From: an uncultured bacterium
Lineage (GTDB): Bacteria > Bacteroidota > Rhodothermia > Rhodothermales > UBA10348
Assembly (NCBI GenBank): GCA_943788505.1
Contig: CALSQR010000002.1
Span: 633,213 to 697,212, forward strand
DNA length: 64,000 nt
Direction: 5' to 3'
Below the pieces are notes generated by a model. That model was not told where the DNA came from and made no database searches. It was given only the letters and a program-made list of their open reading frames with translations. Shown one piece after another: positions 26,134 to 46,942 of this stretch (the first letter of the stretch is position 1; each line of letters opens with the position of its first letter). The position numbers and the translations under genes were made by a program.

Positions 26134-27477
26134 TTACTCGTGCCCTAGAGAACGTTTCTCGGCTTTCCACGTCATCGCTATGAGGACAATGGCCGCAGCA
26201 CACGATCCCGCTATCAGCATAAACCCAGCGTCCCAGCCATAGGCGTCTACCAAAGCACCAATAGCAACATTGGCTGCCACGGCTCCTCCCACATAACCGA
26301 ACAGGCCGGTAAAACCAGCGGCCGTTCCAGCAGCTTTCTTGGGAACTAGATCCAGCGCATGGACGCCAATCAGCATAACGGGTCCATAAATAAGAAAACC
26401 GATCGCAATCAGCATGGCAATGTCCAGCGCAGGATTGCCTGGCGGGTTAAACCAATAGACAACCACGCAGACACCAGTCAATAACATATACACGATACTG
26501 ACGGGGGCGCGTCGTCCGCGGAAAAACTTATCTGACATCCATCCACACAGAAGCGTACCAGGAATTCCTGCCCACTCATAAAGAGCATAGGCCCAACTGG
26601 AATCGTCAAAGGAGAACTGTTTCACTTCCCCCAAATAGGTCGGTGCCCAATCGAGTACGCCATAACGCACCAAGTACACGAAGGCATTCGCTAAAGCGAT
26701 GCTCCACAAAAGTTTATTGTTAAGGACGTGGCCAAAAAAGATCTCTTTGGTAGAGAACTCCTTTTCATGGGTGGACTCGTATTCGAACGTTTTTGGATAG
26801 TCATTCCTGTACTCCTCGATCGCGGGAAGACCCTGGCTCTGGGGGGTATCGCGAACTTTAAGGAGAATAAAAACCACGACAAATAAGGAGAGTATTCCGT
26901 GGGTGTACAGAATAGCATGCCAATCTGCAAAAATTGCGACCCCCAGTATAGCAATGGGCCCTACTAGACCTCCTCCAACATTATGCGCCACATTCCATAA
27001 CGCCATTTTTGTACCGCGCTCATTGGTCGAAAACCAATGCACCATGGTTCGTCCAGATGGCGGCCATCCCATACCTTGAAACCAGCCGTTCAACAATAAT
27101 AGAGTGAACATTATGGTTACGGAAGAGGTCGCAATAGGCACGGTCCCCAGCACAATCATAATGACGGCACTCACGGCCAAACCCAGTGCCATGAATGTTC
27201 GGGCATTACTGCGATCAGAAACACTCCCCATCAAAAACTTTGACAGTCCGTAGGCAATGGCGACGCCAGATAAGGCAAATCCCAGTTCGGTCCTAGAAAA
27301 CCCTTCCTCGATGAGGTAGGGCATAGCAAGTGAGAAGTTCTTACGGACGAAGTAGTAGCCAGCGTAGCCGACAAAAACGCCCATGAATACCTGTAACCTG
27401 AGGCGCCGATATTCTTTGTCTGTCTCGGCTTCCGGAATCCGCTGCTTATGAGATGGAGGACGTAGTAATCCGATCAT
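26134..27477 (-). CDS. glpT: Glycerol-3-phosphate transporter (GlpT-type, MFS organophosphate:phosphate antiporter)
   Basis: A 447-residue inner-membrane protein with 12 helices. The N-terminal block [33 protein letters not shown] and the [28 protein letters not shown] loop are diagnostic of the organophosphate antiporter family, as are [20 protein letters not shown] and the final [21 protein letters not shown] 27477 overlaps the glpF stop (ATGA); the frame extends upstream into glpF. As the last gene of the operon it would import G3P made by the adjacent lipoprotein phosphodiesterase. Confidence 0.93.
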
Positions 27478-28190
27478 ACATTTGTCCCAATCAATACGAA
27501 GAGTCCGGCAGCTATCAATGCTCCAATACAGGGACCCACGACTGGAATCCATGAATAGCTCCAATCATTATCCCTTTTACCGGGAATAGGAAGCAGTGCG
27601 TGGATCAATCGCGGCGAAAGGTCACGGGCCGGGTTAATTGCGTATCCCGTCGTTCCCCCTAAAGCAATCCCAATAACAAGGACCAGCAAGGCAACGGGAA
27701 GTGCATCGAGGGCGCCAAGACCTACTTCAGGAGCTGCCAGGAGCAGTACACAGAAGACTAGTACGAATGTCCCCAAAATCTCAGATATCAAATTCGACAT
27801 TCTATCTCGAATTGCCGGAGCCGTACAGAATACTGCCAATTTGAAATCAGCGTTTTCTGTTGCCGCAAAGTGGGGGCGATAATGCAGCCATACCAGGAAA
27901 GCACCAATAGCTGCCCCTAGGAACTGTGCAGCCATATAGGACGGCACCAATGACCATGAGAATTTGCCAGCAGCAGCAAGGCCTAATGTCACAGCTGGAT
28001 TGATATGTGCGCCACTTATCGCCGCAACGGAGAAGACGCCTACAAAGACCGCCATTCCCCAGCCAACAGTTATAACGATCCAGCCACTATCATGTCCTTT
28101 TGTCTTACCCAGCAGGACGTTTGCAACGGTTCCATTTCCAAGGAGAATGAGAAGGGCAGTTCCAAGTATTTCAGCCAAAAAAGGCGTCAT
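27474..28190 (-). CDS. glpF: Glycerol facilitator (MIP/aquaglyceroporin)
   Basis: A 238-residue channel with six membrane helices. The two pore motifs are HINPAVTLG (Asn at residue 64) and [10 protein letters not shown] (about 185). Asp after NPAR, as in NPARD, is the mark of glycerol facilitators rather than water channels. It is coupled to glpT downstream and follows the phosphodiesterase gene by 45 bp. It provides free glycerol to GlpK, which traps it by phosphorylation. Confidence 0.95.
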
Positions 28191-28235
28191 CTGACTAAAT
28201 GGGTTTTATTGAAAGCAGCTACGAATTAAGATCAA

Positions 28236-29111
28236 CTACCGTTTGAGAACCGCTCCACGATCGGGATAGTCCGTGATAAGTGCGTCCACACCAAGGTAAA
28301 GAAGTTCTTTCATTCGGTCTGAATCGTTCACCGTCCACGGGACAATGGCCATTCCCAATCCATGCACGGAGTCAATGAGTGAGCGGTCAACAAGATTATG
28401 ATTAGGGCTGTAAGCCTGAGGAATAAAGCTCAACCGATCCATATTTGCCTCAAGGCCTAGCTCGTTGCTAACTAAAAATGCCAGTGTTACCTGCGAATCA
28501 ATCCGTCGAACGGCTTCCAGTGAACGAGGATCGAAAGACTGTATGGTAACCTGATTCAACAGGTCTTGCTCAGCAAGAACCTCATAAAGGAGCTCAGCAA
28601 AGGTATCAACGTCCGGATGGAATACGCCATCTCCGTCCTCCTTGGACTTGATCTCAATATTATACTGCAGCGTTCTTTCGGAATGATTCTCTATGGCCCG
28701 AAGAGCCTCGGAAAGAAGGGGTTTTTGTACAGCACGTGGTTCTTGATCTGGAAATCGAGGGTTTCCTCTTGAACCACAGTCAAAAGCTGCTATCTCTTCA
28801 TAGGACATCGTATACAAATTGAGCGACCGAGCTTCTTCCTCGGTGACGGGCGTGCCATCGGGATGGGAACAGATCTCTGAAGACATCCAAGGCTCATGCG
28901 ACACTACGATCTGAGAATCTGCAGCCACAACGACATCCATCTCGATTGTGTCCACTCCCAGATCAGCAGCCAGAAGAAATCCTGGAATCGAGTTTTCGGG
29001 AAGTAAGCCCCGTGCTCCGCGATGTCCTTGTAGATCATAATCAACCACTTGGGTGCACCCAAGCAAGCCAGTCAAAACTAGCAATGGGATAATTTCAGAT
29101 AGGTTATTCAT
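28236..29111 (-). CDS. Lipoprotein glycerophosphodiester phosphodiesterase
   Basis: A 291-residue GDPD-family enzyme with an N-terminal signal and lipobox LLGC (Cys about 19), so it acts outside the cytoplasm. Catalytic TIM-barrel residues are visible: HRGARGLLPENS (His and Glu-Asn), DTIEMDVVVAADSQIVVSHEP (E-x-D metal ligands and second His), YNIEIKSK and the C-terminal WTVNDSDRM. It splits glycerophosphodiesters into G3P and an alcohol. Placement between glpD and glpF/glpT fits periplasmic release of G3P and glycerol for import. Confidence 0.92.
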   Translation of the reverse strand: MNNLSEIIPLLVLTGLLGCTQVVDYDLQGHRGARGLLPENSIPGFLLAADLGVDTIEMDVVVAADSQIVVSHEPWMSSEICSHPDGTPVTEEEARSLNLYTMSYEEIAAFDCGSRGNPRFPDQEPRAVQKPLLSEALRAIENHSERTLQYNIEIKSKEDGDGVFHPDVDTFAELLYEVLAEQDLLNQVTIQSFDPRSLEAVRRIDSQVTLAFLVSNELGLEANMDRLSFIPQAYSPNHNLVDRSLIDSVHGLGMAIVPWTVNDSDRMKELLYLGVDALITDYPDRGAVLKR

Positions 29112-29157
29112 GTCAGTGATGCTATTTGTCTAAAGTGTCCAAATCCCTGAGTTTGAA

Positions 29158-30774
29158 TCAGGGTTGCAGCTGGTACCGAGAGGCTAAGGAAGTGAAGGAA
29201 GAAACCTGCTTCTCTATCCAATCGGAGTCTTTATCTAAGTAGGATGCCATTTTTTGCGCTACGGCTGGTGCCATTTCTATGCTGGCGGCCGCATTTAGAA
29301 AGAGAGCCCGCATGCGACGAGCCAGAACATCTTCTACCGTATGCGCCATTTCGTGTTTGAGTGCCCAGGTTACTTGCCCCATCACAAACGGGAGATCGGG
29401 ATGCAACGGCTCATCTCCTTGAGCATCTTCTTGAATAGTTTTGATCAAAGCCAGCCTATCTGAGCCGTACTCACTATACATGGCATCACGATCATTGTCA
29501 TCGCTGTAACCGTAGATAGGAAGATCACTCGTTACGCACATCCGGTCCGAAGCACCAATGCGCTGACATACCCGGTTTACAACTTGCTCGGCCATATATC
29601 GGTACGTAGTCCACTTGCCGCCCGTAATCGTTATCAGACCTGATTCAGACTCTAGAATCAAGTGTTCACGGGAGACTGATTTTGTGGGGCCTTTTGAATT
29701 GCCAATAAGAGGGCGCAGCCCAACAAATACGCTGAGCACATCGGAGCGGGAAGGGGCTTTTTTCAGGTATCTACCAGCATGTCCGATCAAAAATGCGATT
29801 TCCTCTTCAAATGCTCTTGGCTCGGTATCGATCGATTCAACAGGGGTATCCGTAGTTCCAAGCAGTGCGTGTCTTTTCCAGGGGATGCAGAACAATACGC
29901 GGCCATCATCCGTGCTGGGAACCATCACAGCTGCTGGTCCCGGTAAGAAAGATGCCGGCAACACCAAGTGTACGCCCTGACTTGCTCGGATTAAGCTCTC
30001 CTTTCTGGGGCCCTCCATCTCACGTACTTCATCAACAAATACGCCTGTCGCATTGATCACGGACCGGGCCGTAACGCTGAACTCTCCACCCGATTCTAAG
30101 TCCGTAACCTGCACTTCCATCAACATCTGTGCATTCTTTGAAAGTGCCTTCACGTTGCAATAATTGATGACTGTGCCTCCTTCTCGAACGCACGTCTGAG
30201 CCAAGGCGAGTGCCAAGCGAGAATCGTCAAACTGGCCATCGGAATACTCAATACCTCCAGCCAGATGAGTATCATTCACACCTTCCTGCTCACGAATGAC
30301 TGCGCTTCGACCCAGTACACGAGAGGACGGTAAACCGCGCCCTGATGCGAGTATATCATACAGCTTCAATCCTATGCCATAGAACCCAATTTGTGCGTAA
30401 TTGCGGCATGGGACCACAAATTGGCGGAGATTCACCAGATGTGGAGCATTTTTAAGTAGCAGGTCTCGCTCCCTTAGGGCCTTCATGACCATGCGTATGC
30501 GTCCTTGCTTCAAATAACGTACTCCGCCGTGAACAAGCTTTGTACTCCTGCTCGAGGTCCCTTTCGCAAAGTCTGAGCGCTCTAGGAGCAAGGTGCGTAG
30601 CCCCCTTGATGATGCATCCACAGCGGCTCCCAGCCCTGTTGCACCTCCTCCGATAATCACAACATCCCACACTCCTTCATTTCGCGCTTCAGCAAGGGCT
30701 TCAGTGCGATTTAGATGACCGGCCCGAGTAGAAGCCCGCTCATCTGAAGAATGCTGGTGGTTGAGACTAGGCAT
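29158..30774 (-). CDS. glpD: Aerobic glycerol-3-phosphate dehydrogenase
   Basis: A 538-residue FAD enzyme oxidising G3P to DHAP and passing electrons to quinone at the inner membrane. The dinucleotide fold is [21 protein letters not shown] (about 38-58), followed by [24 protein letters not shown], the substrate/FAD block. Further blocks are [25 protein letters not shown] and [16 protein letters not shown]-terminal helical domain is present. Its ATG lies 8 bp inside the end of glpK, so it is coupled. Confidence 0.96.
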
Positions 30775-32269
30775 TCGTTTCAGGCTCTATCCAGTCTCGA
30801 GACCGGTCAAGGGCTCGTTTCCAGGTGATTGTCAACGACTCACGATCTGTATCCGACATGTCGGAACGGAATGTTCGATCTTCAGCCCACAGGGCTCTCA
30901 ATTCAGGTATGCCACTCCAGAAGCCAACCGCCAATCCAGCCAAATAAGCAGCACCTTGAGCAGTAGTCTCCACGATGCTTGGTCGGACTACAGAAACGGC
31001 AAGAAGGTCAGCCTGGAACTGCATTAGAATGTTGTTGGCAGCCGCCCCTCCATCCACCCTCATACTGGCAAGCTCGATACCGGAATCAGTTTCCATGGCG
31101 CGAACTAAATCAGCACTCTGAAAGGCAATACTGTCTAGGGCAGCACGTGCGATATGAGCGGCTGAAGAGCCTCGGGTCAATCCAACAAGAATACCCCGAG
31201 CGTATGGGTCCCAATGTGGTGCTCCAAGTCCGGCAAATGCCGGTACCAGAAATACACCTTCACTTGACTCAACCTGTGCCGCGAGGGCCTCTACTTCATC
31301 AGAAGACTCGATTATTCCGAGGCCATCTCGAAGCCACTGAACCACTGCTCCCCCAATAAACACACTGCCTTCTAGCGCATAGGTTGTCTCATCTCCAATC
31401 TGCCAAGCAACTGTCGTAAGCAGATTGTTTTTTGATTCGATGGCCTTACTGCCGGTATTCATAAGCATGAAGCACCCCGTCCCATAGGTGTTTTTCACCA
31501 TACCGGGATCCACACACACCTGACCGAACAATGCCGCTTGTTGATCACCGGCAACGCCAGATATCGGTATTTTCGACCCAAAAAGAGCAGAATCACTTGT
31601 CCCGATGACGCCACTTGAGGGGACTACATTTGGAAGCATCGAGCGCGGTACTTCCAAAAGGTCAAGCAGCACATCGTCCCATGCCATCTCATGAATATTG
31701 TAGAGCATGGTACGCGAGGCATTGGAAGGATCTGTAGCATGGATCTTGCCCCCCGTCAGATTCCATATGAGCCAACTATCTACCGTCCCAAAGGCCAAAT
31801 GACCTTCGTTCGCTGCTTCCCGGGCTCCCGGAACGTTTTCCAGTATCCAGCGGACCTTGGTGCCTGAGAAATAGGCGTCGACAACGAGGCCTGTCCTGGA
31901 TCGAATATCACCTTCGACGCCTCTTCCCTTGAGGTCATCACAAAACCCTGCGGTACGACGATCTTGCCATACGATGGCTTTAGAAATGGGACGACCTGTT
32001 CTTCGATCCCACACGACAGTTGTCTCGCGCTGGTTGGTAATTCCTATCGCGGCTACGTCTGTTCCATCCGACCCAACGCGAGCGAGCACCTCTTTTGTCA
32101 CTTGAAGCTGCGTATTCCAAATCTCTTCTGCATCGTGTTCAACCCATCCGGGTTGAGGGTAGTGCTGGGTAAACTCTTGCTGTGCCATATCCACGATGGT
32201 ACCATTTCGATCAAAGAGAATGGCTCGGGAGCTTGTGGTGCCCTGGTCAAGAGAAAGAACGTATTTCAT
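30767..32269 (-). CDS. glpK: Glycerol kinase
   Basis: A 500-residue FGGY kinase converting glycerol and ATP to G3P. Signatures: [18 protein letters not shown] (ATP site), [38 protein letters not shown], the [13 protein letters not shown] block, [15 protein letters not shown], and [13 protein letters not shown]. Length is normal. It is the first metabolic gene after the export/uptake genes, 18 bp behind the SurA-like lipoprotein gene. Confidence 0.97.
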
Positions 32270-32287
32270 TTCAGCTTGGATCTAGAA

Positions 32288-33805
32288 TTATAGTCCGTAG
32301 TCAGTTACGGGCCACGCCGGACGTCCCGTACTGGCTTTGAACAATTGAACGGACGGCGAATGCATATCGAACGTGGAGTAATCCACTTGTTCAAGTGCTT
32401 TATAGTCTATCTCGATGGGTATTTGAAGCCGAAGATCTGTCAGTATCTGCTCCAATGCAGCAAGCGTCTTGGCCCTTCGAACTTGACTCTCAACCTCTGC
32501 CGAAACGGATTCTAGAGAGCTATCCTCAGGCCAGTCGGACCGATATCGCTCGAAATAGAGAAGAAGATCTTCCTCATGAACCGTAACTGTATTCTCCACC
32601 TGAAGCTTGAATACTTCATAGACCCATTTATCGGTCCAACGTTCGACTTCTGACAGCAGCTCTGGGGCCGCATCAAAGCCTTGATCAAGAGCTTTTTGAA
32701 TGAACAGCTGGTCCCTCACCAACAATCCGAATGCATCGTAATAGTCACTTCGAAATTCATCGCCCGATCGAAGAGAAAGTGGGTATCGGTCGTGAGGGTA
32801 TTCAGCTAGGAACTCAGCAACGGTCCACGACCGGTCACTCGTTTCCATGATCGGCTTGGCCTCCATATCCAAGATGGTCCTTGCAAAAGACGTCGAATCA
32901 ACCTCAAGACGTTGCCACAGAGTCAGAGCATCTTGGGTCCCCTCTTCCTCACTGATCGATAACCAATTCCACAGAGCCTGCTCAAGTCTTCCATACGCTT
33001 CTTTCTTCAGTCGAAGATCTCTGTCGGCCACCGTACGCCCAATTAATGAGCGAGCAGCTTGTCGAGATTTTTCAGCGAAAGCTACCTGCTCATAGCGTGC
33101 CTTCTCCTCCGCGCCGGGTTCGGCTGTAATGGGCGTCCTGAGAATGTCCAGCACCTCAACCAAGAGGAACCCCCCTCGAAAGGGAACTGGCAAAGAAATC
33201 TGTCCTACGGGCAAATTCCGGGTTGCCTCCCACACGATAGGATCTAAAGAAGCGGGTGAAACGAGATCGGTTTCAAGATCTTGAACTCGCACATGGCGCA
33301 TCCCCTCCTCGCTGGCCGAAAGCTCAGCAACTGCCTCTTCAAATCCGTTCTCGAGATAGACTCGTCGAAGTCGCTCAGCCGATTCTGAATTTGCAGCAGG
33401 CAGGAAGCGCAGGACGACTTGAATTGCGTCTAGCCTGCGGAGGGAATCAATGTCAGCAGCTGTTACCGCAACGGAACGGGCGGCATCCTCTTCAAATACA
33501 TGTCCCACTAGAAGCTCCTCGGTCAAACTTTCGACCTGACGTCGTATAGAAGAGAGCGAATCCAATCCCATGCGATATCCTGCCTGAGCGAGAAGCTGTT
33601 CAGCAATCATGTGTTCCAAATAGACCACCTTGGGATCTGGTCCCTGCTTCAGTCTGGGATGGCCTTGTTCAAAGTCTCGACTGAATTCCGTGATGGTAAT
33701 CGAAGCGTCTCCTACTCGTGCAAGTATCTGCGCTTCGTCGTCCTGAGACGAACACCCTAAGAAGACAAATAGAGCAATCCACAAATATGAGATCCGACGG
33801 CCCAT
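32288..33805 (-). CDS. SurA/PrsA-like lipoprotein chaperone (parvulin-type domain uncertain)
   Basis: A 505-residue lipoprotein (lipobox FLGC, Cys about 17). The mature start ILARVGDASITITEFSRDFEQG and the helical stretch after it are the SurA_N/trigger-factor-like peptide-binding pattern; a middle part (about 120-220) has the spacing of a parvulin rotamase but without clearly conserved catalytic residues. Such proteins escort beta-barrel proteins across the periplasm. Its ATG overlaps the stop of the preceding gene (TGATG). In this operon the natural clients would be the TonB receptor and PorV-like barrel, which is inference. Confidence 0.65.
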   Translation of the reverse strand: MGRRISYLWIALFVFLGCSSQDDEAQILARVGDASITITEFSRDFEQGHPRLKQGPDPKVVYLEHMIAEQLLAQAGYRMGLDSLSSIRRQVESLTEELLVGHVFEEDAARSVAVTAADIDSLRRLDAIQVVLRFLPAANSESAERLRRVYLENGFEEAVAELSASEEGMRHVRVQDLETDLVSPASLDPIVWEATRNLPVGQISLPVPFRGGFLLVEVLDILRTPITAEPGAEEKARYEQVAFAEKSRQAARSLIGRTVADRDLRLKKEAYGRLEQALWNWLSISEEEGTQDALTLWQRLEVDSTSFARTILDMEAKPIMETSDRSWTVAEFLAEYPHDRYPLSLRSGDEFRSDYYDAFGLLVRDQLFIQKALDQGFDAAPELLSEVERWTDKWVYEVFKLQVENTVTVHEEDLLLYFERYRSDWPEDSSLESVSAEVESQVRRAKTLAALEQILTDLRLQIPIEIDYKALEQVDYSTFDMHSPSVQLFKASTGRPAWPVTDYGL

Positions 33806-35811
33806 CAATTAGTGTGAATGACCGGCTTTACGGTCCGCCGAGACCCATTTTCCATCACAACGAAGTACATGCCTGAGGGAAATTGTGTGGCGTTCCATGT
33901 TATGGTCTTTGCTTCACCCGCTTGAATCTCTTCAGCCACCGTCGCTATACGACGTCCAAGCAGATCCATTACAAAAACAGAAACGACACGATCTGCACCA
34001 CCTGATAGTGAGATACTAAGTGTGTCCACAAATGGGTTAGGAAACACTTCAACATCGAAATTCAATCCAATGGGGGATTCGTCCCGCCCGGTAGATACAT
34101 GTGAACCCAGAATAGCCGATGCTGGAATACTATAAACGAATGGATAGTAGCTGGACCAAGCCCCTGTTGATTTACGCTGATAGTAGTCCGTACCGGATTC
34201 AGAATTGGTCCACAATGAACCATCTGGAAGGAAGGACAGGTCCTCTATGCCGTGTGGCATGATGACAATAGAATCAGGAGAAACAATACTCGTGGTTGAG
34301 AGCGCATCCAGACGATAACGAAGCAACTCTGCTGACGATGAAGACCGATTTCTTGAAAGAACCACGACTGTTCCCCTAGGAGTTTCGATGAGATCGACCC
34401 CCTGGATCCGTCTGGGAAGGGGAAACTTATAGACAGGGTCAGGATTCGGACGGCCATTTTCATCAATTGCGTGGGCAAACAGAAAAGGTGCCGTGTCCGA
34501 TGATGTTCGATAATCGCCCACCCAAAGTGTGTCCCTGAATGCAGAAACAAAAGAAGCCTTGGACGGCGTCTGAATCGTTCCTTCGGAGTCGGCTTCCAGG
34601 TCTACGTATTTAGCCGGATTTGACGGATCCCATTCGGGCAAGGGATATCGTTCGAGTACTCCTGCCGAGGAGATGTAAAGTGCATTATGAGAGTAGGCCA
34701 CACCACCTGCGTGGGAGAATCCAAGCTGGCCCATAAGTCGAAACGTACGTCGCACCAATCCGGTGCGCGCATTCATTTCAACGACAATTGAATGCTGTAA
34801 TTCAATGGTTCCTTGACGAGTGCGATGGTAGTACGAAACGAATACAAAGGGCACCTCTTCTCCGTCAACCTCCTCAATCCGTGTAGCGGTGCCTTGTGGG
34901 ATGTACAGGTCATTTGCATACGGGAGGAAAAAACGCTGATCTATATCGACCGGAGAAGATTGAATTCTGAGATCCGCTGGAAGACGCTGATCTTCAAGCG
35001 AATAATCGTGGTAAGAGGGTAGTCCGAAGTATGTACCTCCGTCGTGGGGAATACCAGAATAAAGATATTCCTCCCTCGCAGAATACCCTCTGATCAACGC
35101 AGCGAAGAGTTGACCCGTAAACGTGCCGGTCAGGGTCGGGCTCTCGGCATTTCCCGTGGCCGATGATCCAATCATCACGGGAAATGAGATGGGATATGGA
35201 CTGGGAATGGAGAGTTGCTCCACTAAATCATCTTGTAGGACTCCATCCACAAAAAGACGCAAGGTCAGCGCGCCTTGCCAATAAAAGATGGTGGCCGCCA
35301 CCCACGTATTTTCGTCAATCTCAACGGGCCTATCCGCATCCAAACGATAAGTCGAACTCTGCAGGTCAAACTCCAAGAATGGAATGTCATTTTCCAATCC
35401 TAGGCTAAAGCCTTCGCTCGCGGAAACACGATTGGAAAACAGCGTGGAAGTCTGATTTGATGTCTGACTGCGAAACCACACCTCTACCGTCATTTGCGGT
35501 CCGAGGGGTTGGGAAATATCCTCTGTTTCAAGGCTCCGAATCCGTGACTCAGGGGCCTCAAACTCGGCTGAGCTAGGCGCTGTCATTCCCCAGCCACCGG
35601 GGTTTCGCGCAGCAAATTCCACTGGGTCTATAAAAGGCCCTTCCTCGACATCCTCCAACAAAACCGAGGAGGTTAACTCGGCACCTTCTGGCAAATATCG
35701 GAACAGAACGGCCGCCGCCTGTCCGCTGGCCGCCTGTCCGCTGGCCTCTTGGCCAGCGGACAGGACGAACAGAACCATTACGAGGACAACTCTACTGACA
35801 ATGTGATCCAT
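33805..35811 (-). CDS. Secreted LamG-type protein with T9SS C-terminal tail
   Basis: A 668-residue protein. A signal peptide ends near SAGQEASGQ. Residues about 95-230 form a concanavalin/LamG sandwich (MTVEVWFRSQTSNQTSTLFSN ... RLFVDGVLQDD). The middle (about 240-560) looks like a beta-propeller with repeated strands. The end carries a T9SS type A sorting domain: EVFPNPFVDTLSISL, VMDLLGRRIATV, and the FPSGMYFVVME end. It is therefore predicted to be exported by type IX secretion and anchored or released at the surface. The ASGQA repeats at the signal cleavage region derive from a DNA hairpin. Ligand unknown. Confidence 0.8.
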   Translation of the reverse strand: MDHIVSRVVLVMVLFVLSAGQEASGQAASGQAAAVLFRYLPEGAELTSSVLLEDVEEGPFIDPVEFAARNPGGWGMTAPSSAEFEAPESRIRSLETEDISQPLGPQMTVEVWFRSQTSNQTSTLFSNRVSASEGFSLGLENDIPFLEFDLQSSTYRLDADRPVEIDENTWVAATIFYWQGALTLRLFVDGVLQDDLVEQLSIPSPYPISFPVMIGSSATGNAESPTLTGTFTGQLFAALIRGYSAREEYLYSGIPHDGGTYFGLPSYHDYSLEDQRLPADLRIQSSPVDIDQRFFLPYANDLYIPQGTATRIEEVDGEEVPFVFVSYYHRTRQGTIELQHSIVVEMNARTGLVRRTFRLMGQLGFSHAGGVAYSHNALYISSAGVLERYPLPEWDPSNPAKYVDLEADSEGTIQTPSKASFVSAFRDTLWVGDYRTSSDTAPFLFAHAIDENGRPNPDPVYKFPLPRRIQGVDLIETPRGTVVVLSRNRSSSSAELLRYRLDALSTTSIVSPDSIVIMPHGIEDLSFLPDGSLWTNSESGTDYYQRKSTGAWSSYYPFVYSIPASAILGSHVSTGRDESPIGLNFDVEVFPNPFVDTLSISLSGGADRVVSVFVMDLLGRRIATVAEEIQAGEAKTITWNATQFPSGMYFVVMENGSRRTVKPVIHTN
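35718..35764 (-). repeat. Direct plus inverted 14-bp repeat forming a strong hairpin at a gene start
   Basis: CCTGTCCGCTGGCC occurs at 35718-35731 and 35733-35746; its perfect inverted copy GGCCAGCGGACAGG lies at 35751-35764, separated from the second copy by only TCTT. The mRNA of the minus-strand gene can form a 14-bp GC-rich hairpin with a 4-nt loop, 47 to 79 nt after the first base of the ATG, with an alternative partner copy further on. It encodes the ASGQAASGQ repeat at the signal-peptide end. Confidence 0.9.
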
Positions 35812-35814
35812 GTG

Positions 35815-38772: not shown

Positions 38773-38800
38773 TGGTGGATGGATAGGGAGGACACAATTA

Positions 38801-39865
38801 TCAACGACCTACACCGAGCGTGAAGCGTTGGGCACTGCCCAGGAAACCCATGTCAGCGTAGGAGTATTCAGCAATTACTCGGACTCGATCCAGGAGGCGG
38901 CGATGAACACCGACTCCGAAAGAAAGTCCACTCACGCGATCGCGCTCAAACAGCGCAGCGTAGCCTCCCCGAAGAGAGAGGGTATTACCAAAAGTGTATT
39001 CTAACCCGAGATTTACCGATTCACTGTTGTCTGATGGATTTATCAGATCAGCAGCCAGTGTCACTCGGTGATAGTCGGATATGTTTTTCTCATAACCGAA
39101 TCCAAATCGAAACGTCAAAGGAACTGAAAACTTGTCCGTATCTAAGCTGACGTTTAATTGGTTATTGCTAAAATTTGATGGGTCATCATCAAAGGCGCGG
39201 CGTAAATCACGCCCCTCAAGCTGCATATTGCCTCCAAAATTGAGGATACTTGCAGCGAGGACAAAACCCTCGAGTCGGGTTTGGTACAGAATTCCAAGAT
39301 CAACAGCCATCGCTCTGGCGGTTTCATTCCACAATGTTTCTCGGATATATTTTCCTGTAATACCTGCCGAAAATCTGTTGGTTAATGAGGTTGCATACGT
39401 CAGGCCCAACATCACGTCAGAGGCGCTATAAAATTCACCGGTTCCCTCAGGTTGCAGAATCGTACGTACCGGCTGGTTGTCGACCGCATCGAACGCCAAA
39501 ACACTGATGCCAAGCGTGCCTGCACCAGGTATCCGAAACACCAGACCGACAAAATCTAAATTCGTATCAACCAACCAATCGGTATGATCGAATGTAACTG
39601 ATGCCTGAGCAGGTAGATTTGCTGCAGCTGCAGGATTCCAGTACAAAACCGTGGCATCTCGAACCAATGTTGTGCCTGCATTTCCCATCGCCATAGCCCG
39701 AGCACCCACTCCAATCTGAAGAAAAGCAGCGGCACTGGTCCCTGCATTGGACACGTCCTCAACGAAGTTCGCACTGGGAGAATCCACTTCCTGGGCCTGT
39801 ACAACAGGTGTCAAGTAGACCGCAATCAGCGCACATACAACGGGTATGATTCTACGGAAGGTCAT
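38801..39865 (-). CDS. PorV/PorQ-family outer-membrane beta-barrel protein
   Basis: A 354-residue barrel with an N-terminal signal. Its diagnostic start AAAFLQIGVGARAMAMGNAGTTLVRDATVLYWNPAA matches PorV/PorQ (UPF0164, FadL-like) proteins. Amphipathic strands run through to a final VGR. PorV shuttles T9SS cargo to the attachment complex; many lineages also encode PorV-like proteins next to a TonB receptor and a large exported protein, as here. ATG overlaps the stop of the large upstream gene (ATGA). Dedicated role for the two T9SS-tailed neighbours is inference. Confidence 0.85.
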   Translation of the reverse strand: MTFRRIIPVVCALIAVYLTPVVQAQEVDSPSANFVEDVSNAGTSAAAFLQIGVGARAMAMGNAGTTLVRDATVLYWNPAAAANLPAQASVTFDHTDWLVDTNLDFVGLVFRIPGAGTLGISVLAFDAVDNQPVRTILQPEGTGEFYSASDVMLGLTYATSLTNRFSAGITGKYIRETLWNETARAMAVDLGILYQTRLEGFVLAASILNFGGNMQLEGRDLRRAFDDDPSNFSNNQLNVSLDTDKFSVPLTFRFGFGYEKNISDYHRVTLAADLINPSDNSESVNLGLEYTFGNTLSLRGGYAALFERDRVSGLSFGVGVHRRLLDRVRVIAEYSYADMGFLGSAQRFTLGVGR

Positions 39866-42800
39866 TTGATCAGTGTGAATTTACCCGTTGCCTCTCCTGC
39901 ATCCGGCGTCTCTACATGAAAGAAGTACACACCGAAGGCAACTGTGAGGCCATCCTTGGAGACCAGATCCCAACTTTCGGATCCGTCTGCGAATGGGGAG
40001 TCATGGTCCAACACCTGAACCAATTTACCCGCGGTATTAAAAATCCGAATCGTGCATTGAGGTGGAAGATTTACGAAGTCAATGCGACGCTCACCCCTAC
40101 CGGTAGCGTTGAAAAGCGGACGCTCCCAAGAGGCGCTTGCCACATAAGGATCAGGTACGACGTAAATATCAGAGAGGTCGGCGCCAGCTTTCTCGCTCTC
40201 ATAACGCGTCTCTTGGGTGCCAAATGTTATAGTATCCAGTGACGAGTAGGGTTTGCTCACCTCCAATCGAAATACATCTCCGGGCTCAGGAAGTCGAGGA
40301 CTTTCGCCATCCGGACCACTGAAGGTGAAACGCCAGCCCAAGTTGAAGCGGAATCCAACAGGATCAAAGACAAGCGTTATCACATCACCTGCACTGAGGC
40401 GTCCATCAGGTGTACCCGTTTCATCCAGAATGAAGAGATACTTTCTTCCTGAGGTCGCGCCATAGATCTCGAAATCTACCGGCGTCCTCTGTTCAAAAGC
40501 GAATTGTACGAAAGATGAATCCACCCCGGGGGCACCCATTCTGATCTCGATGTCATCGGGCACCGGTATTGTTCGTCCGGATTCGACGATATCAATCGTA
40601 GCTCTGAGGTTAGAATTGCCTTCCGTCCATCCATAAGTGAGCGGAACTGGTTCGGGCGGGGTATAGACCCTAAAATTCAATCCCGATAGCAACCGACGAG
40701 AGAGATCAACACTGTCAAAGGCTGCAGCTTCAAAGACGGTGCGGTTGGTGCTCGTTTCCTCGATGCGAATTCCGCGAGTGAGCAGGGCTTTTGTCGTATC
40801 CGTGAAGGAAACCCTGAACTGTCCGCCGCGCTCGAGGCTATCAGGTACCACAACCTCTACCTCAATACTTCCCGTTCCCGGACCGTTATGGATGATCTCG
40901 CCGTCCAATCCTCCGAGTAAAACACCCGCTCCGGGAGCATTTGGCACGACTACGGCCGTATTTCGATCAACAAACGTCACGTTTCCAATGAGGTCTGTCT
41001 GGATGATTTTCGAGGCCTCGCTCGGGGAAATGGGAGTGAGTTTGTCTCGGGTCGATATACCGCGGTCAAAAAAGTCGACGTCATACCCAGTATCGTATGG
41101 GACGAGCGCATAGTAGTATGACCGCCCATTATCCAGGCCTGTGTCCTTGTAGTAGTAGCGAAGGCCTGAGTCGGTACCTGTATTGAACACAGCGCCGGTC
41201 TCTCCGATCTGGACGGGGTGAGGACCTTTCAATCCGTTGTCGAGATCAAATTGAGCTATTGGCTGCCACAGAATGGGGTTCCCAAATGCATCCGTAATCG
41301 TCTTGATGGAATTGAAAGACGGATCAGTCGCCCGATAGACCATGTATCCCTCAAAGTCCGTCCCGTAGATCGGATCACGAGAGAATTCCGCGACATTATC
41401 CCACATCAGAACAGCAGATTGATCACCCTGGACGGCCGTAAGGCGAGACTTGTTCGGCGGCTTCGCGAACGAGTAATCCGCGTCGTAAATCTTCTGCATT
41501 GTCCGCTTATTGCGAAGGATGTCATCGAAGTTGCGGCCAAACAGACATGCAATCGCAAATTTTCGGGTGGCCTCTCTCGGAAGGGAAAAATATCCTGAGC
41601 CGTAAACGAAGGCCAGATTACTTGGCATTTCGCCACCAAACCTGTTTGGCTCCATTTCAAGCCAGGTCCGCTCGTCATCACTTACGTTCCCGGCCGGACG
41701 CAATACATAGCTGGTCAGCCCGATCTGATCAGATTCATCGTTATCGGTCTTCCCAAAGTTCGGCTCGCCTTGATCTGGACGACCATTATCCTCTGTCCCG
41801 TCTGAGTCAGGTCCTGAATATCCATCATCATTGGGTCCCAGACCATCCGATCCTTTGTCGTCAACGAGGGGCTCGTCACTTTCCCTAACGCCATCCCCGT
41901 TCAGATCATTGAATGGCACCCAGTCAGCATCCTCATCACCCGTCCACCACACTCCGTATTCCACGGCGGGAAGAAGCGTTGGACTACCGAAGAAACTCTC
42001 AAAGTCGGTCATGAGATAGCGCGAAGACAATTCTGCTAAAATGGCTTCTTGACCCTCGATACGGGTACCCGCATCGTCGTCTTGCACTTCGTCTGAGATG
42101 CCGTTCTGATCGTTGTCTTCACCGTCGAGAGGGTCTCCAGGACTTTCCAGAAAAGCGAAGCCAAAGTACCCCACACCGGGACGACCCCGATTGTCGATAC
42201 CGTCTCGATCCCACATATAAACGATGTCATCCTGCCGCTCGAAATCCGCGAAATCATCCACGGAGTCTCCCTGTCCCCCCACTGCCGGGTCCACGTACAT
42301 TCCGAAAACGACCTTGGTCAAATCCTTGTCGCTGACATTTTCAATGTCGTATCGGACAATCAGAATATCCTCAGCTTGCACATTGACCCACTGGTATCCG
42401 CGCACTCCAACCTGCAAACCGATGCCTCTCCGACCCGTCGGGAAATCGGAGGAATCGGCCACACTACCTGAAAAGGGAAAGTAATCGAACTCGTCGTTGT
42501 TACGGTCGTCCATAACGTAATACGACTCTTGGTCCGCGCGGACAAAAGCTCCAAATTCGCCATTCCACAGTCCATCACGGGATCCTTGATCGCCGGGATA
42601 GTCAAATGGCCATGGCTCGGGCCACGTCTCTTCCAGATGACTCATGGCCGGGTATTCCAGTTCATTGAATGAGCCTGGATTTACGTAGCCTGCGAGAGGC
42701 TCCCATCCGTAGGTATGGGTACCGTCAGGACTCACGTCGAAAGAACCCGGGTTTGTATAGTTCTCGGATACGATCCGAATGTATCGACCCTCCTTGTCCT

Positions 42801-43131
42801 GAACTTCCGCACCCGCCATCATCACGAACTCGAAGCCATACCATTGGCCCGATCCCTTAGGCCACTCCATTTTCGGAGGCTCAAATCGACTGCCCAGGTT
42901 TCCGTAATTCGAATAGCGAGTAAACACCAAGTTTCCATCGTGAACTCCTGTTCGACGATACTCTCGACCTGCCTCTGCTCGATCCTGAGCCGAGACCGAT
43001 AGCGAAAAACATACGCTAGACAGCAACAGCAGAGCACCTGAGATACCTAGGCCCAGAAACCCATTCCTTGCCGAGTGGGCGGACGTCAATTCGCTCGACA
43101 TATTTTTCGGTATTTCTCTATCGCACATCAT
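39862..43131 (-). CDS. Large exported protein with Asp-rich repeats and T9SS-like C-terminal domain
   Basis: A 1089-residue protein with an N-terminal signal (GFLGLGISGALLLLSSVCFSLSVSAQ). About residues 330-470 contain many Asp/Asn/Gly calcium-loop-like runs (DGEDNDQNGISDEVQDDDAG; DLNGDGVRESDEP). A fibronectin-III-like part around residues 560-700 (AVLMWDNVAEF, YMVYRATDPSFN, YYYALVPYD) is followed by beta domains. The end, IYVVPDPYVA to GVYFFHVETPDAGEATGKFTLIK, has the T9SS or FlgD-like Ig-type C-terminal form. No catalytic motif recognised. ATG 43131 overlaps the receptor stop (TGATG). It is the middle gene of a receptor-protein-PorV triad common in this group. Confidence 0.8.
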   Translation of the reverse strand: MMCDREIPKNMSSELTSAHSARNGFLGLGISGALLLLSSVCFSLSVSAQDRAEAGREYRRTGVHDGNLVFTRYSNYGNLGSRFEPPKMEWPKGSGQWYGFEFVMMAGAEVQDKEGRYIRIVSENYTNPGSFDVSPDGTHTYGWEPLAGYVNPGSFNELEYPAMSHLEETWPEPWPFDYPGDQGSRDGLWNGEFGAFVRADQESYYVMDDRNNDEFDYFPFSGSVADSSDFPTGRRGIGLQVGVRGYQWVNVQAEDILIVRYDIENVSDKDLTKVVFGMYVDPAVGGQGDSVDDFADFERQDDIVYMWDRDGIDNRGRPGVGYFGFAFLESPGDPLDGEDNDQNGISDEVQDDDAGTRIEGQEAILAELSSRYLMTDFESFFGSPTLLPAVEYGVWWTGDEDADWVPFNDLNGDGVRESDEPLVDDKGSDGLGPNDDGYSGPDSDGTEDNGRPDQGEPNFGKTDNDESDQIGLTSYVLRPAGNVSDDERTWLEMEPNRFGGEMPSNLAFVYGSGYFSLPREATRKFAIACLFGRNFDDILRNKRTMQKIYDADYSFAKPPNKSRLTAVQGDQSAVLMWDNVAEFSRDPIYGTDFEGYMVYRATDPSFNSIKTITDAFGNPILWQPIAQFDLDNGLKGPHPVQIGETGAVFNTGTDSGLRYYYKDTGLDNGRSYYYALVPYDTGYDVDFFDRGISTRDKLTPISPSEASKIIQTDLIGNVTFVDRNTAVVVPNAPGAGVLLGGLDGEIIHNGPGTGSIEVEVVVPDSLERGGQFRVSFTDTTKALLTRGIRIEETSTNRTVFEAAAFDSVDLSRRLLSGLNFRVYTPPEPVPLTYGWTEGNSNLRATIDIVESGRTIPVPDDIEIRMGAPGVDSSFVQFAFEQRTPVDFEIYGATSGRKYLFILDETGTPDGRLSAGDVITLVFDPVGFRFNLGWRFTFSGPDGESPRLPEPGDVFRLEVSKPYSSLDTITFGTQETRYESEKAGADLSDIYVVPDPYVASASWERPLFNATGRGERRIDFVNLPPQCTIRIFNTAGKLVQVLDHDSPFADGSESWDLVSKDGLTVAFGVYFFHVETPDAGEATGKFTLIK

Positions 43132-45878
43132 CAAAAGCGAATGTCTATACCAAAAATGATACGGCGTGGTGGATCAAAGAAGTCAGGTCGTAAATCAACT
43201 TCTCCAGAAGTAAAATTCGGATTCAGAGCTAGCACCTCGGCCTCGCCGAGCGTTCGATAGGGATGGAATGCATTCCCTGTACTAGAATAAACCGATTTGG
43301 CGTTCAAGCGATCTAGAACATTGAACCCCTTCGCATAGAGACGCGTTTCGAGACCGGCAATTTGGATACGTCTGGATAAGTTGACGTCCAGATTCATGCG
43401 AACTGGCTTGGATTCACTATTGGCAAGCTGAGACGAAAGCTGACTTCCTGGATTAGACGGCGTGTAAGGCTGGCCGGTCGAGAAGCGTCCAATGATGCTA
43501 AACGTAAATCCACTTGGATCCCCCATGATCACAGATCCATTTAGAGAGTGCCGTTGGTCCCAGTTCAAAGGAATAACCTGCTTTTCAGGCTCTATGGGAG
43601 GCCTAGTCTGATTATTGAAAAAGACCGCGTTCGGGTCTGAAGCATTGCCCCTGGCAACCTGATAGGTATAATCAATCGTCAAACCAAACTGATCAGCAAA
43701 CTGACGCAATAAGGAAAAGGCGAAACCTCTCGTATTACCGTAATCCCTATTGATGTATCTCGCATAGACTTTCTTGTCGACTGTATTGATGATCTCCTGC
43801 CCCAGCAGGTTCTTGATATCCTTATAGTAGATCGTCGCTTCTATCTTCCATGACGACGTTAACGCATATTGCAAACCCAATTCATAGGCCGTCGTACGCT
43901 CAGGCTTGAGATCTGCGTTACCCATTATGGTCTCCAAATCTCCGAGTTCAACTTCAAATTCGGAGTTGGTATAAATGTAGGCGAATCGAGGGACCTGAAA
44001 GAAGCGTCCATAGGAGACGTGCAGAACACCCCGCGAGGAAATAGGGAAAGCAAGACCGACTCGTGGACTGAGTTGCATTGATCGCTTAGCATCAACGAAA
44101 CCCGTTGCCAATCGAATACCGTCATCTGGGTTGGTTATAGCTTGAAGGTCATCGGGTACTGGTGCATTGGGCTCCCAAAGGTCAAAACGCACACCAGCAT
44201 TCAATACGAGTTCGTCTATCTCCAACTTGTCTTGCACGAATAGCACGACTTCCCAGGGCTCTCTCGTGTATTGGTCGTTACCAGCCGTATTGCCCGCTGG
44301 AATACGCTGAGAAGGATCTAGATATACGGGGCCATCGGAAATAGTAGCCTGAGATGCCTCTTCTACACGATGTCTTTGCCACTCTATGCCAGCCTTGACC
44401 AAGTTATTCCTGTTTACCTGGCGCTCAGCTTGCAGCTTTACTAAAAATGTTGAATTGGAGGCTTCAGATCTCCCATTACTGGTTCCGCCAAAGGCAAATC
44501 CGTTTGAAGAAAAGGGCGTCCCTTGATAGCGAGAATCCAATGGGTTCTCGAAAAGTCGACTACCAACCTGATTATCCTGATAGGAAATGCCCAAGCGCAG
44601 ATAAGAGCGGGCATCCGGAGTAAGCGTAAATGAAAGCAAGTGATTTATGCCGCGCTCAGTTGTCGTGGGCAAGCCTTCCGGGGCGTAGCGTCTGTAATCC
44701 TGATACGACTTGCGCTCCTCGTCGCTATAGAAAGCTGCGTAGCTTGCTGTTAGCATCGAAGAAAGACGAAAAGAGAGACGCCCATGCAGAGATAACCGTT
44801 GCTTGGGGTTCATCGATACCAGCGACCGATCTCCGGATAGCAAAGAATCAGGAATTGGAATTCCGACTAGATTATCGATGTCAGAAGCCGTTTGCTGAGC
44901 TTCCTGGATATAGGACTGAATAGGCACCGTGTCGGATATCAAAGCACGCCGTTCTCCGTTCAACCAACCTGTATTGTCCGTAAAGCGAACATTGGAAAAG
45001 AAGGAACCCTCGCGAAGAAATCGAATCGGCCCCTGAAGACTACCCTGAAAATTGTACTCGTCCAGCGAAGGGTTGTCCTTTCCTGCAAAAATGTCTGACT
45101 TAGGGGTCAAAAAAGATCCACCATAAAACCCCACATCACCAGAAAAATGATCGACTGAACCCGTCTTTGTGACAATATTTATGACACCCGACTGCGCCTG
45201 TCCATATTCCGCATTGAAAACACCGCTGATGACTTGCAGCTCCTGAATCCAGTTATTTTCAATCTCAATCTTAGACCCCCCACTGTATTGATTGGTCACG
45301 GGAATGCCGTCAACCAAGTAAGCAACTTCACCGGAACGACCACCGCGCATGTGAAGTCGGCCTTGAGAATCGTAGGTCACACCAGATTGCAGCTGCAGAA
45401 GGTCTGAAACCTCCTGGACGGGTAAATTTGCTATCGATTCGGAATCTACGTAGGACGCCGAAGTCGTCCGATCAACTTCGATGATCGGACGAGTGGCCGT
45501 TATGAAAATTTCCTCGCCTTGAATGACTTCGACTGCCAGCTCAAAGTCCACTCGCGTTGTCCGATCAATAGAAACCCTGACCTCGCCCTGGCGAACCGTT
45601 CCAAATCCTATCATTGAAGCCCTAACCGTATACACTCCAGGAGCCACGTTTATGATGGCATAGCTGCCGTCTGGAGCTACAGCTGCTCCCTGGCCGGTTT
45701 CTTCTATATAAACGGTTGCTCCAATCAGAGGCTCACCGGTTTCCGCCTCTACGACCTGGCCCGCGATTTTCCCAGCAACATGTTCATCTGCAGTAGCTGC
45801 TTGGGACGGACTACTCCAAATACCCTGACACATACTGGCTACAACCAGGGTAAAGGTAAATTGGATGATTCCGCGCAT
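43131..45878 (-). CDS. TonB-dependent receptor with carboxypeptidase-regulatory-like domain
   Basis: A 915-residue outer-membrane receptor. Signal peptide, then a carboxypeptidase-regulatory-like domain (about residues 35-115: GKIAGQVVEAETGEPLIGATVY), the plug (about 125-245: EVSDLLQLQSGVT, RGGRSGEVAYLVDGIPV, GVFNAEYGQAQSGVINIVTK) and a 22-strand-type barrel ending in aromatic F (IIFGIDIRF). First gene of the operon that goes on to glycerol metabolism, so the transported substrate may be a glycerol-containing compound; the sequence alone does not show this. The start at 45878 is the only signal-compatible ATG. A Shine-Dalgarno-like AAGGAGGTGATC lies too far upstream (28 nt). Confidence 0.92.
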   Translation of the reverse strand: MRGIIQFTFTLVVASMCQGIWSSPSQAATADEHVAGKIAGQVVEAETGEPLIGATVYIEETGQGAAVAPDGSYAIINVAPGVYTVRASMIGFGTVRQGEVRVSIDRTTRVDFELAVEVIQGEEIFITATRPIIEVDRTTSASYVDSESIANLPVQEVSDLLQLQSGVTYDSQGRLHMRGGRSGEVAYLVDGIPVTNQYSGGSKIEIENNWIQELQVISGVFNAEYGQAQSGVINIVTKTGSVDHFSGDVGFYGGSFLTPKSDIFAGKDNPSLDEYNFQGSLQGPIRFLREGSFFSNVRFTDNTGWLNGERRALISDTVPIQSYIQEAQQTASDIDNLVGIPIPDSLLSGDRSLVSMNPKQRLSLHGRLSFRLSSMLTASYAAFYSDEERKSYQDYRRYAPEGLPTTTERGINHLLSFTLTPDARSYLRLGISYQDNQVGSRLFENPLDSRYQGTPFSSNGFAFGGTSNGRSEASNSTFLVKLQAERQVNRNNLVKAGIEWQRHRVEEASQATISDGPVYLDPSQRIPAGNTAGNDQYTREPWEVVLFVQDKLEIDELVLNAGVRFDLWEPNAPVPDDLQAITNPDDGIRLATGFVDAKRSMQLSPRVGLAFPISSRGVLHVSYGRFFQVPRFAYIYTNSEFEVELGDLETIMGNADLKPERTTAYELGLQYALTSSWKIEATIYYKDIKNLLGQEIINTVDKKVYARYINRDYGNTRGFAFSLLRQFADQFGLTIDYTYQVARGNASDPNAVFFNNQTRPPIEPEKQVIPLNWDQRHSLNGSVIMGDPSGFTFSIIGRFSTGQPYTPSNPGSQLSSQLANSESKPVRMNLDVNLSRRIQIAGLETRLYAKGFNVLDRLNAKSVYSSTGNAFHPYRTLGEAEVLALNPNFTSGEVDLRPDFFDPPRRIIFGIDIRF

Positions 45879-46177
45879 GAACTTAATGACTGCAAATTAC
45901 GGGTTCGATCACCTCCTTCTTAATGAGATTGTGACCAGGGCTCAACCGCAGCAAAACGAACGGTTGTGCACACACTACTCCAGAGCTTGGGGCGAATCGG
46001 CACAGAGGCCATTCTGTAAGTACTTAAAGGTGCCGATCACGATACACACTGAGTCAATTGCAATCAAGCTTGAGTACATAACAATCACGTATTGACTGTT
46101 TCTGATCGTTTTGCGTCTTATATAGGTGCAAAAGACTTTCAGCAGAAGTCTATATGCTCATACGAACATCAGCAGTC
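45879..46177. promoter_or_regulatory. Divergent control region of the glp locus
   Basis: 299 bp between the receptor operon (leftwards) and the glpR-like gene (rightwards). Features seen: an imperfect palindrome GCAAAAC-GAACG-GTTGTGC at 45951-45969, an inverted copy of its half (CGTTTTGC) at 46107-46114, a possible rightward -35 TTGACT (46092-46097) with a -10-like TATATA (46119-46124) at a long 21-bp spacing, and a full AAGGAGGTGATC on the minus strand (45918-45907). These are candidates for repressor operators and leader elements, found by eye. Confidence 0.45.
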
Positions 46178-46942
46178 ATGCAAAGTCCAGCAGAACGTCA
46201 CAATCATATCCTCAAAACATTACGGCAGCGAGGATTTGTTGCTGTTTACGACCTCCAAAAAGAGCTAAATGTATCCGAAGCTACGATACGGAGAGACCTC
46301 AGAAGTCTAGAAGGCCGAGATCTCCTTCATCGAACGCATGGTGGCGCCAACCCTCAAAGCCACTTATTATATGATCGCCCCATTTCTGAAAAGGCAAAAC
46401 GATACTCAGAAGAGAAAAAGCGCGTGGGCAGAACAGCCGCTGAAATGATTGAAAAGAATGACTCCATTATTCTTGCATCAGGCACAACCGTCCTTGAAGT
46501 CTCTCGGCATATCTCGCACAATGCTATAGTTACTGCCGTGACGGCCTGTGTTCATGCTGCTCTCGAACTTGTAGACCGGCCCGGTGTCGAGCTTATCCAG
46601 CTAGGGGGTATGGTTCGTGCCACCTCGACATCCGTTGTCGGGGCGAGCGCAGCAACAATGATGAATGCCATGTCTTGTCGAAAACTCTTCTTGGGAGTGG
46701 ACGGCTTGGACGTACACCATGGCCTAACAACATCAAGTCCCCTAGAGGCCCATCTAAACCAATGCATGATATCGGCCGCCCAAGAGGTAATTGTTGTGAC
46801 TGACCACTCAAAACTAAGTGTCCGGGGATTCAGCAAGATCTGCGCAATTGACCAAATCGATAAGATTATCACGGACAATCAGGCTCCTGCAGAAACGGTC
46901 CGCGCACTCGAGGACAGCGGGATCGAGGTAATCTGTGTCTAG
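46178..46942 (+). CDS. glpR: DeoR/GlpR-family transcriptional repressor
   Basis: A 254-residue regulator. N-terminal DeoR winged HTH (AERHNHILKTLRQRGFV; VYDLQKELNVSEATIRRDLRSLEGRDLLHRTHGG) is followed by the DeoR sensor domain (DSIILASGTTVLEVSRHI, GVDGLDVHHGLTTSSPLEAHLNQCMI, EVIVVTDHSKL). The sensor domain binds a sugar phosphate; in GlpR this is G3P. It is transcribed divergently from the operon carrying glpK, glpD, glpF and glpT, which makes it the probable repressor of that operon with G3P as inducer. ATG 46178 is preferred on family alignment; ATG 46154 adds 8 residues. Confidence 0.88.
   Translation: MQSPAERHNHILKTLRQRGFVAVYDLQKELNVSEATIRRDLRSLEGRDLLHRTHGGANPQSHLLYDRPISEKAKRYSEEKKRVGRTAAEMIEKNDSIILASGTTVLEVSRHISHNAIVTAVTACVHAALELVDRPGVELIQLGGMVRATSTSVVGASAATMMNAMSCRKLFLGVDGLDVHHGLTTSSPLEAHLNQCMISAAQEVIVVTDHSKLSVRGFSKICAIDQIDKIITDNQAPAETVRALEDSGIEVICV

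Follow-up and report, generated by a model that had tools for sequence, protein, structure and literature searches.

A gene cluster joining T9SS-type surface proteins to the glp pathway in the Rhodothermales, best read as a SusD-less PUL-like locus for glycerophosphodiesters or phospholipids

Introduction

In Escherichia coli, glycerophosphodiesters are converted to dihydroxyacetone phosphate (DHAP) by GlpTQ, GlpFK and GlpD under the control of GlpR, a DeoR-family repressor. To our knowledge, the E. coli glp genes are without a dedicated outer-membrane receptor or surface proteins. In Flavobacterium johnsoniae, the PUL-like loci PUSI-IV for organic phosphorus contain phosphodiesterases, and in PUSIII T9SS-type proteins occur with a TonB transporter (PMC8115612). 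Also in Flavobacterium, dedicated CTD/shuttle pairs (SprB-SprF and others) have been shown experimentally (PMC12618676), which provides an experimental precedent for a cargo gene beside its own barrel gene. In a full-text search that covered few subscription papers, neither the T9SS/PorV triad nor a union of T9SS proteins with glp turned up as a described system.

Here we describe a gene cluster within a stretch of 64,000 nucleotides (the whole of which is called the window) from an uncultured member of the Rhodothermales, whose genome is 2.75 Mb in two contigs. Our best reading of the cluster is a PUL-like locus, dependent on T9SS and without SusD, for the use of glycerophosphodiesters or phospholipids.

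Results

Layout and regulation of the cluster

Eleven ORFs lie on the minus strand between positions 45878 and 26134, joined by overlaps or by gaps of at most 46 bp, and a gene for a DeoR-type regulator is transcribed divergently from them. An earlier note on this DNA had described this arrangement, and every ORF of it is present and tightly packed at the following positions:

46154..46942, plus strand: divergent DeoR/GlpR-type regulator (HTH_DeoR and DeoRC domains)
45879..46153, no strand assigned: promoter region common to the regulator and the TonB receptor, partly conserved in six family members
43131..45878, minus strand: TonB-dependent receptor, 915 aa, putative outer-membrane importer of the triad (Pfam CarboxypepD_reg, Plug and TonB barrel)
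39862..43134, minus strand: Asp-rich exported protein of 1,090 aa with a T9SS-CTD-like C-terminus (no Pfam or NCBIfam family)
38801..39865, minus strand: PorV/PorQ-family outer-membrane barrel (NF033709, 205.6 bits)
35815..38772, minus strand: surface protein of 985 aa with three Lamin Tail Domains, LamG and a T9SS tail (LTD x3, Laminin_G_3)
33805..35811, minus strand: surface protein of 668 aa with LamG, a beta-propeller-like region and a T9SS tail (Laminin_G_3, T9SS tail)
32288..33808, minus strand: SurA-like peptidyl-prolyl isomerase lipoprotein with an LGC lipobox (weak SurA_N_3/Rotamase_2)
30767..32269, minus strand: glycerol kinase GlpK (TIGR01311, 730 bits, over the cut-off)
29158..30774, minus strand: FAD glycerol-3-phosphate dehydrogenase GlpD (DAO and DAO_C)
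28236..29111, minus strand: lipoprotein glycerophosphodiester phosphodiesterase, GDPD (PF03009, 119 bits)
27474..28190, minus strand: aquaglyceroporin GlpF (MIP subfamily model TIGR00861, over the cut-off)
26134..27564, minus strand: glycerol-3-phosphate:phosphate antiporter GlpT (TIGR00712, 694 bits, over the equivalog cut-off)

The block is flanked by genes for PEP carboxylase, a PhyH dioxygenase and an S9 peptidase, which have no obvious connection to it. A search of region 45879..46153 for a GlpR-like operator gave no clear conserved palindrome, promoter and terminator scans gave scores not clearly above those of shuffled sequences, and no Rfam element was found near the operon. The regulator probably starts at 46178 and not at 46154, because same-family relatives begin MQ(S/T)PAERH. 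It belongs to the DeoR family, as first proposed, whereas its proposed identity as GlpR found no equivalog match; the best model is AgaR, below the cut-off, and the name GlpR therefore depends on context. That context favours the name: in relatives, homologues of the regulator adjoin glp genes, and one of them (50% identity) does so in genome G034, where the glp cluster lacks the surface genes.

The glp route and the surface proteins by family model

All members of the proposed route from glycerophosphodiesters to DHAP (GDPD, GlpT, GlpF, GlpK and GlpD) are present by family model, GlpD by its domains and best match only, with a score of 301 to the glycerol-3-phosphate dehydrogenase model, below the equivalog cut-off of 360. 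The GDPD, for which a solved homologue exists (3ch0, E 1.2e-65), is predicted to be an enzyme from its catalytic motifs HRG...EN and SH, and carries a signal peptide. GlpT probably starts at the ATG that overlaps the glpF stop codon. No lipase is encoded in the window's own cluster.

The families assigned beforehand to the surface genes (TonB, PorV-like, LamG/T9SS tail) were borne out by Pfam and NCBIfam matches. The barrel exceeds the 90-bit cut-off of the PorV/PorQ family model NF033709, scores below the cut-off for PorV and PorQ proper, and is matched by the PDB PorV structure 6h3i_F (E 4.4e-05). The 1,090-aa protein gave zero matches to Pfam and NCBIfam; its C-terminal end has a weak profile match to the PorU CTD (E 0.079). 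In both LamG proteins the T9SS C-terminal sorting domain is over the cut-off, and the genome itself encodes a T9SS, with SprA present and 37 T9SS-tail matches. Homologues of the 985-aa protein occur in every relative with sufficient contig. Those of the LamG-propeller protein were limited, in a scan of 84,980 species with two short peptide patterns that missed the other-class members, to MAGs titled Rhodothermales, Rhodothermaceae or Bacteroidetes/Bacteroidota, and a profile search of another class found homologues in 2 of 391 genomes. The structures predicted for the 1,090-aa protein and the LamG-propeller protein are of modest confidence (mean pLDDT 69 and 65) and matched generic folds only (Ig/FN3-like, LamG jelly roll, propeller, T9SS CTD), with PorU and PorZ among the matches of the former; neither gave a specific functional match, and no function was read from them. 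The earlier SurA-like call is weak for the window's gene itself, which scores below cut-off for SurA_N_3 and Rotamase_2, but the isomerase domain is clear in its homologues; the lipoprotein probably acts as a chaperone for the surface proteins.

The surface triad is a general module

Triads of receptor, large protein and PorV had been said to occur in this group, and they proved to be a general module that is not specific for glycerol. Of 395 genomes sampled from the phylum, 138 contain the 1,090-aa family, and at the loci examined the receptor lies upstream essentially always and PorV downstream wherever the sequence suffices. Other triads adjoin genes for two ABC permeases and a sugar-binding protein, as a rule together with GH130 phosphorylases; often a LacI-type gene, a SurA-like gene or a gene for a T9SS protein that bears a carbohydrate-binding domain is present as well. 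The ABC-linked locus of G295 has no GH130 within the stretch read. In a 1,090-aa family tree with 33 proteins, copies linked to glp and copies linked to ABC importers form separate supported groups (100/99 and 100/97), so that surface-protein phylogeny and neighbouring pathway agree, and one genome, G048, has both kinds of triad.

In many genomes (loci L116, L117, L150, L165-L169, L171 and L172) the triad is combined with GH130 phosphorylases, ABC permeases and a sugar-binding protein; no SusD was seen in these clusters, which probably represent a mannoside utilisation locus. The window's own genome has further triads beside a PPIase (L103), a T9SS-tailed amidase and a GHL10 protein (L104) and a TPR/multihaem-type protein (L105). 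At L106 it has a receptor and PorV, and there the 1,090-aa family is matched only weakly. SusD_RagB (PF07980) had no match in this genome or in G084, G088 and G104 and is present in other relatives, and a replacement of SusCD would therefore be valid for some lineages only.

It is improbable that the triad serves secretion or outer-membrane assembly and not nutrient import. The PorV family, the T9SS tails, the SurA-like chaperone, the resemblance of the 1,090-aa protein's CTD to that of PorU and the presence of PorU and PorZ among the fold matches of its model would suit such a role; however, the 1,090-aa tree follows catabolic pathways, with one clade beside a sugar-binding protein and ABC importer and mostly GH130, and SprA is already encoded in the genome. 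For a triad serving nutrient import, we infer that the 1,090-aa protein is its substrate-specific partner, and the PorV-family barrel is a probable dedicated shuttle or anchor for it. Taken further, the odds are about even that the triad is a widespread outer-membrane import complex replacing SusCD in several lineages, with the large protein as specificity subunit and one ancient subfamily for glycerol-3-phosphate (G3P) esters derived from glycerophospholipids.

The surface genes and glpD are linked across the order

Conserved linkage of the surface genes to glp genes was looked for in relatives, and it held across four families and in a second class. Twelve further genomes of the order have homologues of the 1,090-aa protein with ∼70-91% identity, and G088, a thirteenth, carries the rest of the block. 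Where contigs allow, the gene order is receptor, 1,090-aa protein, PorV, LTD/LamG, LamG-propeller, SurA-like, (glpK), glpD, and its recurrence in these 13 genomes from four families rules out chance for the gene arrangement. On contigs carrying the SurA-like gene, glpD comes next, directly or via glpK. The f1 and f12 genomes also have glpK, gdpd, glpF and glpT; in f3 and f15 the SurA-like gene is followed by glpD directly, and in three of the six genomes gdpd comes after that. In G085, G099 and G103 the block is divided between contigs whose ends fall inside a surface gene.

glpD is present in every one of the 14 genomes that carry the module and in 66 of the 100 that lack it (p 0.005), and within f1, f3 and f15 the counts are 13/13 and 10/36 (p 4e-6), these p-values being guides only, as species counts are phylogenetically non-independent. 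In genus g12 and family f15, glpD is confined to genomes with the surface genes, and in one genus glpD and the module are together in 3 genomes and both absent in 7. In g12 and f15, glpK is present regardless of the module (as is glpF where f3 surroundings were read), indicating that it is the oxidation step, glpD, that travels with the surface genes. glpK was dropped as a core partner, since in f3 and f15 it is unlinked with or without surface genes. The f3 and f15 genomes lack a true GlpT, and G3P import there therefore requires another route; three of them have a GDPD elsewhere.

In a tree of the 1,090-aa protein, the glp-linked copies form one group (100/100) in which G013 (f3) pairs with G108 (f15), and the tree of linked GlpDs repeats this cross-family pairing, which suggests that the block may have been transferred or inherited as one unit. 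The linked GlpDs are separate from most stand-alone GlpDs, with support of just 53/87 for a single clade. G101 has a second glp operon, glpK-glpD-gdpd-glpF (L139:3732-9167), without surface genes, besides the surface-linked one elsewhere in its genome.

A second class carries the same triad with dissimilar glp genes

Among the 395 sampled genomes of the phylum, two from a different class, G309 and G428, have the same triad with glp genes, and a class-wide search of 391 genomes found only these two. Their order is receptor, 1,090-aa protein, PorV, glpD, a GntR/UTRA regulator, LTD/LamG and LamG-propeller, followed by gdpd (after a SurA-like gene in G428), a GDSL acylhydrolase, two further genes and glpT. 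Compared with the window, the receptor is 50% identical, the 1,090-aa protein 56-58% and PorV 48-49%; GlpT is 42-43% identical, GlpD 28-30% and GDPD 25-28%. That these surface proteins recruited a GlpD, a GDPD and a regulator so unlike those of the window, and in a different gene order, speaks for selection on function. The LamG-propeller gene of G309 (L163:15655-17634) has an in-frame TGA ahead of the T9SS tail, and in G428 a T9SS-tailed calcineurin-type (purple acid phosphatase-like) phosphoesterase directly follows glpT (L185:6649-8658).

That the surface module and the glp operon are two unrelated blocks lying side by side is strongly disfavoured. As such a chance neighbourhood would allow, the f3 genomes have glpK and glpF unlinked, and glp operons that stand apart from any surface genes exist in G101 (C40) and G034, but linkage is found in two classes with differing gene order and with GlpD and GDPD just 25-30% identical, co-occurrence is strict in some genera, and the trees agree.

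Discussion

The most widely kept chemistry is that of GDPD and GlpD, joined in most cases by GlpT, with glpK and glpF as optional members; a G3P ester therefore fits better than free glycerol. The earlier note had proposed an uptake system for a glycerol-containing polymer or lipid; we retain the uptake system and refine its substrate to a G3P ester over glycerol polymers in general. With a probability of roughly 0.7, a dedicated locus takes a glycerophospholipid-derived G3P ester from the cell surface to DHAP, and the GDSL acylhydrolase of the other class points to phospholipid as the source of the glycerophosphodiesters.

For secretion, binding, complex formation, transport direction, the exact ligand and regulation, we infer the following scheme. 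The T9SS would secrete both LamG proteins and the 1,090-aa protein, and these would capture the substrate at the surface, with the SurA-like lipoprotein assisting the folding of surface proteins. The PorV-like barrel would shuttle or anchor the 1,090-aa protein, keeping it beside the TonB receptor, which would bring the ligand into the periplasm, such that the triad would fill the role of SusC/SusD. The lipoprotein GDPD would split the diester into G3P and alcohol, GlpT would import the G3P and GlpD would oxidise it to DHAP, while GlpF and GlpK would recover free glycerol and the DeoR-type repressor would govern the block.

The GDPDs and LamG proteins could equally have glycerol-phosphate glycans as targets, raising the possibility of a teichoic-acid-like or capsular substrate, a polymer or glycan of glycerol phosphate on which GDPD acts as an exo-phosphodiesterase at the cell envelope. 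We regard this as unlikely: the surface proteins are LamG/ConA-type and propeller-like, and the ABC importer served by the sister triads comes with GH130 phosphorylases and with T9SS proteins that bear CBMs, yet the cluster contains no glycoside hydrolase or glycosyltransferase, and the GDSL lipase-family acylhydrolase after GDPD in G309 and G428 suits phospholipid. Scavenging of phosphate instead of carbon is less probable still. It would resemble the PUS loci, in which phosphodiesterases are combined with TonB transporters and with either SusD-like or T9SS proteins (PMC8115612), and HAD and T9SS-tailed calcineurin-type phosphoesterases flank the other-class locus; the window, in contrast, is without a phosphatase, its regulator is DeoR-type, and GlpD, GlpK and GlpF feed central carbon metabolism.

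If a G3P ester is indeed taken up in this way, the PUL idea would widen from polysaccharides to phospholipid-type glycerol compounds, and a SusD-independent uptake complex would connect type IX secretion to nutrient import. The grouping of the 1,090-aa tree by neighbouring pathway could provide testable substrate hypotheses for many unannotated loci of uncultured bacteria.

Compared with SusC/SusD PULs, the locus likewise gathers in one block, together with a regulator of its own, the genes for binding at the surface, for TonB-dependent import, for degradation and for transport across the inner membrane, and its TonB receptor is co-located with enzymes and a regulator for one substrate. In contrast, a SusD-like PF07980 lipoprotein beside the receptor is absent from the cluster as from the genome, the partner being the 1,090-aa T9SS-tail-like protein and a PorV-family barrel, and the ligand would be a G3P ester and not a polysaccharide. 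The dedicated CTD/shuttle pairs share a T9SS cargo gene beside its own barrel shuttle gene, but have Type B CTDs, PorP/SprF shuttles and putative adhesins (PMC12618676), whereas the window's barrel is of the PorV family and accompanies a TonB receptor. The PUS loci, PUL-like and with phosphodiesterases, are the nearest published idea; unlike the present locus, PUSI and PUSII use SusCD homologues and the PUS loci are regulated by phosphate depletion, and the part of their description used here does not report a glp pathway (PMC8115612). The chemistry of GDPD, GlpT, GlpD and GlpFK under a DeoR-family regulator is that of the E. coli glp system, from which the window's locus differs in having a dedicated outer-membrane receptor and surface proteins.
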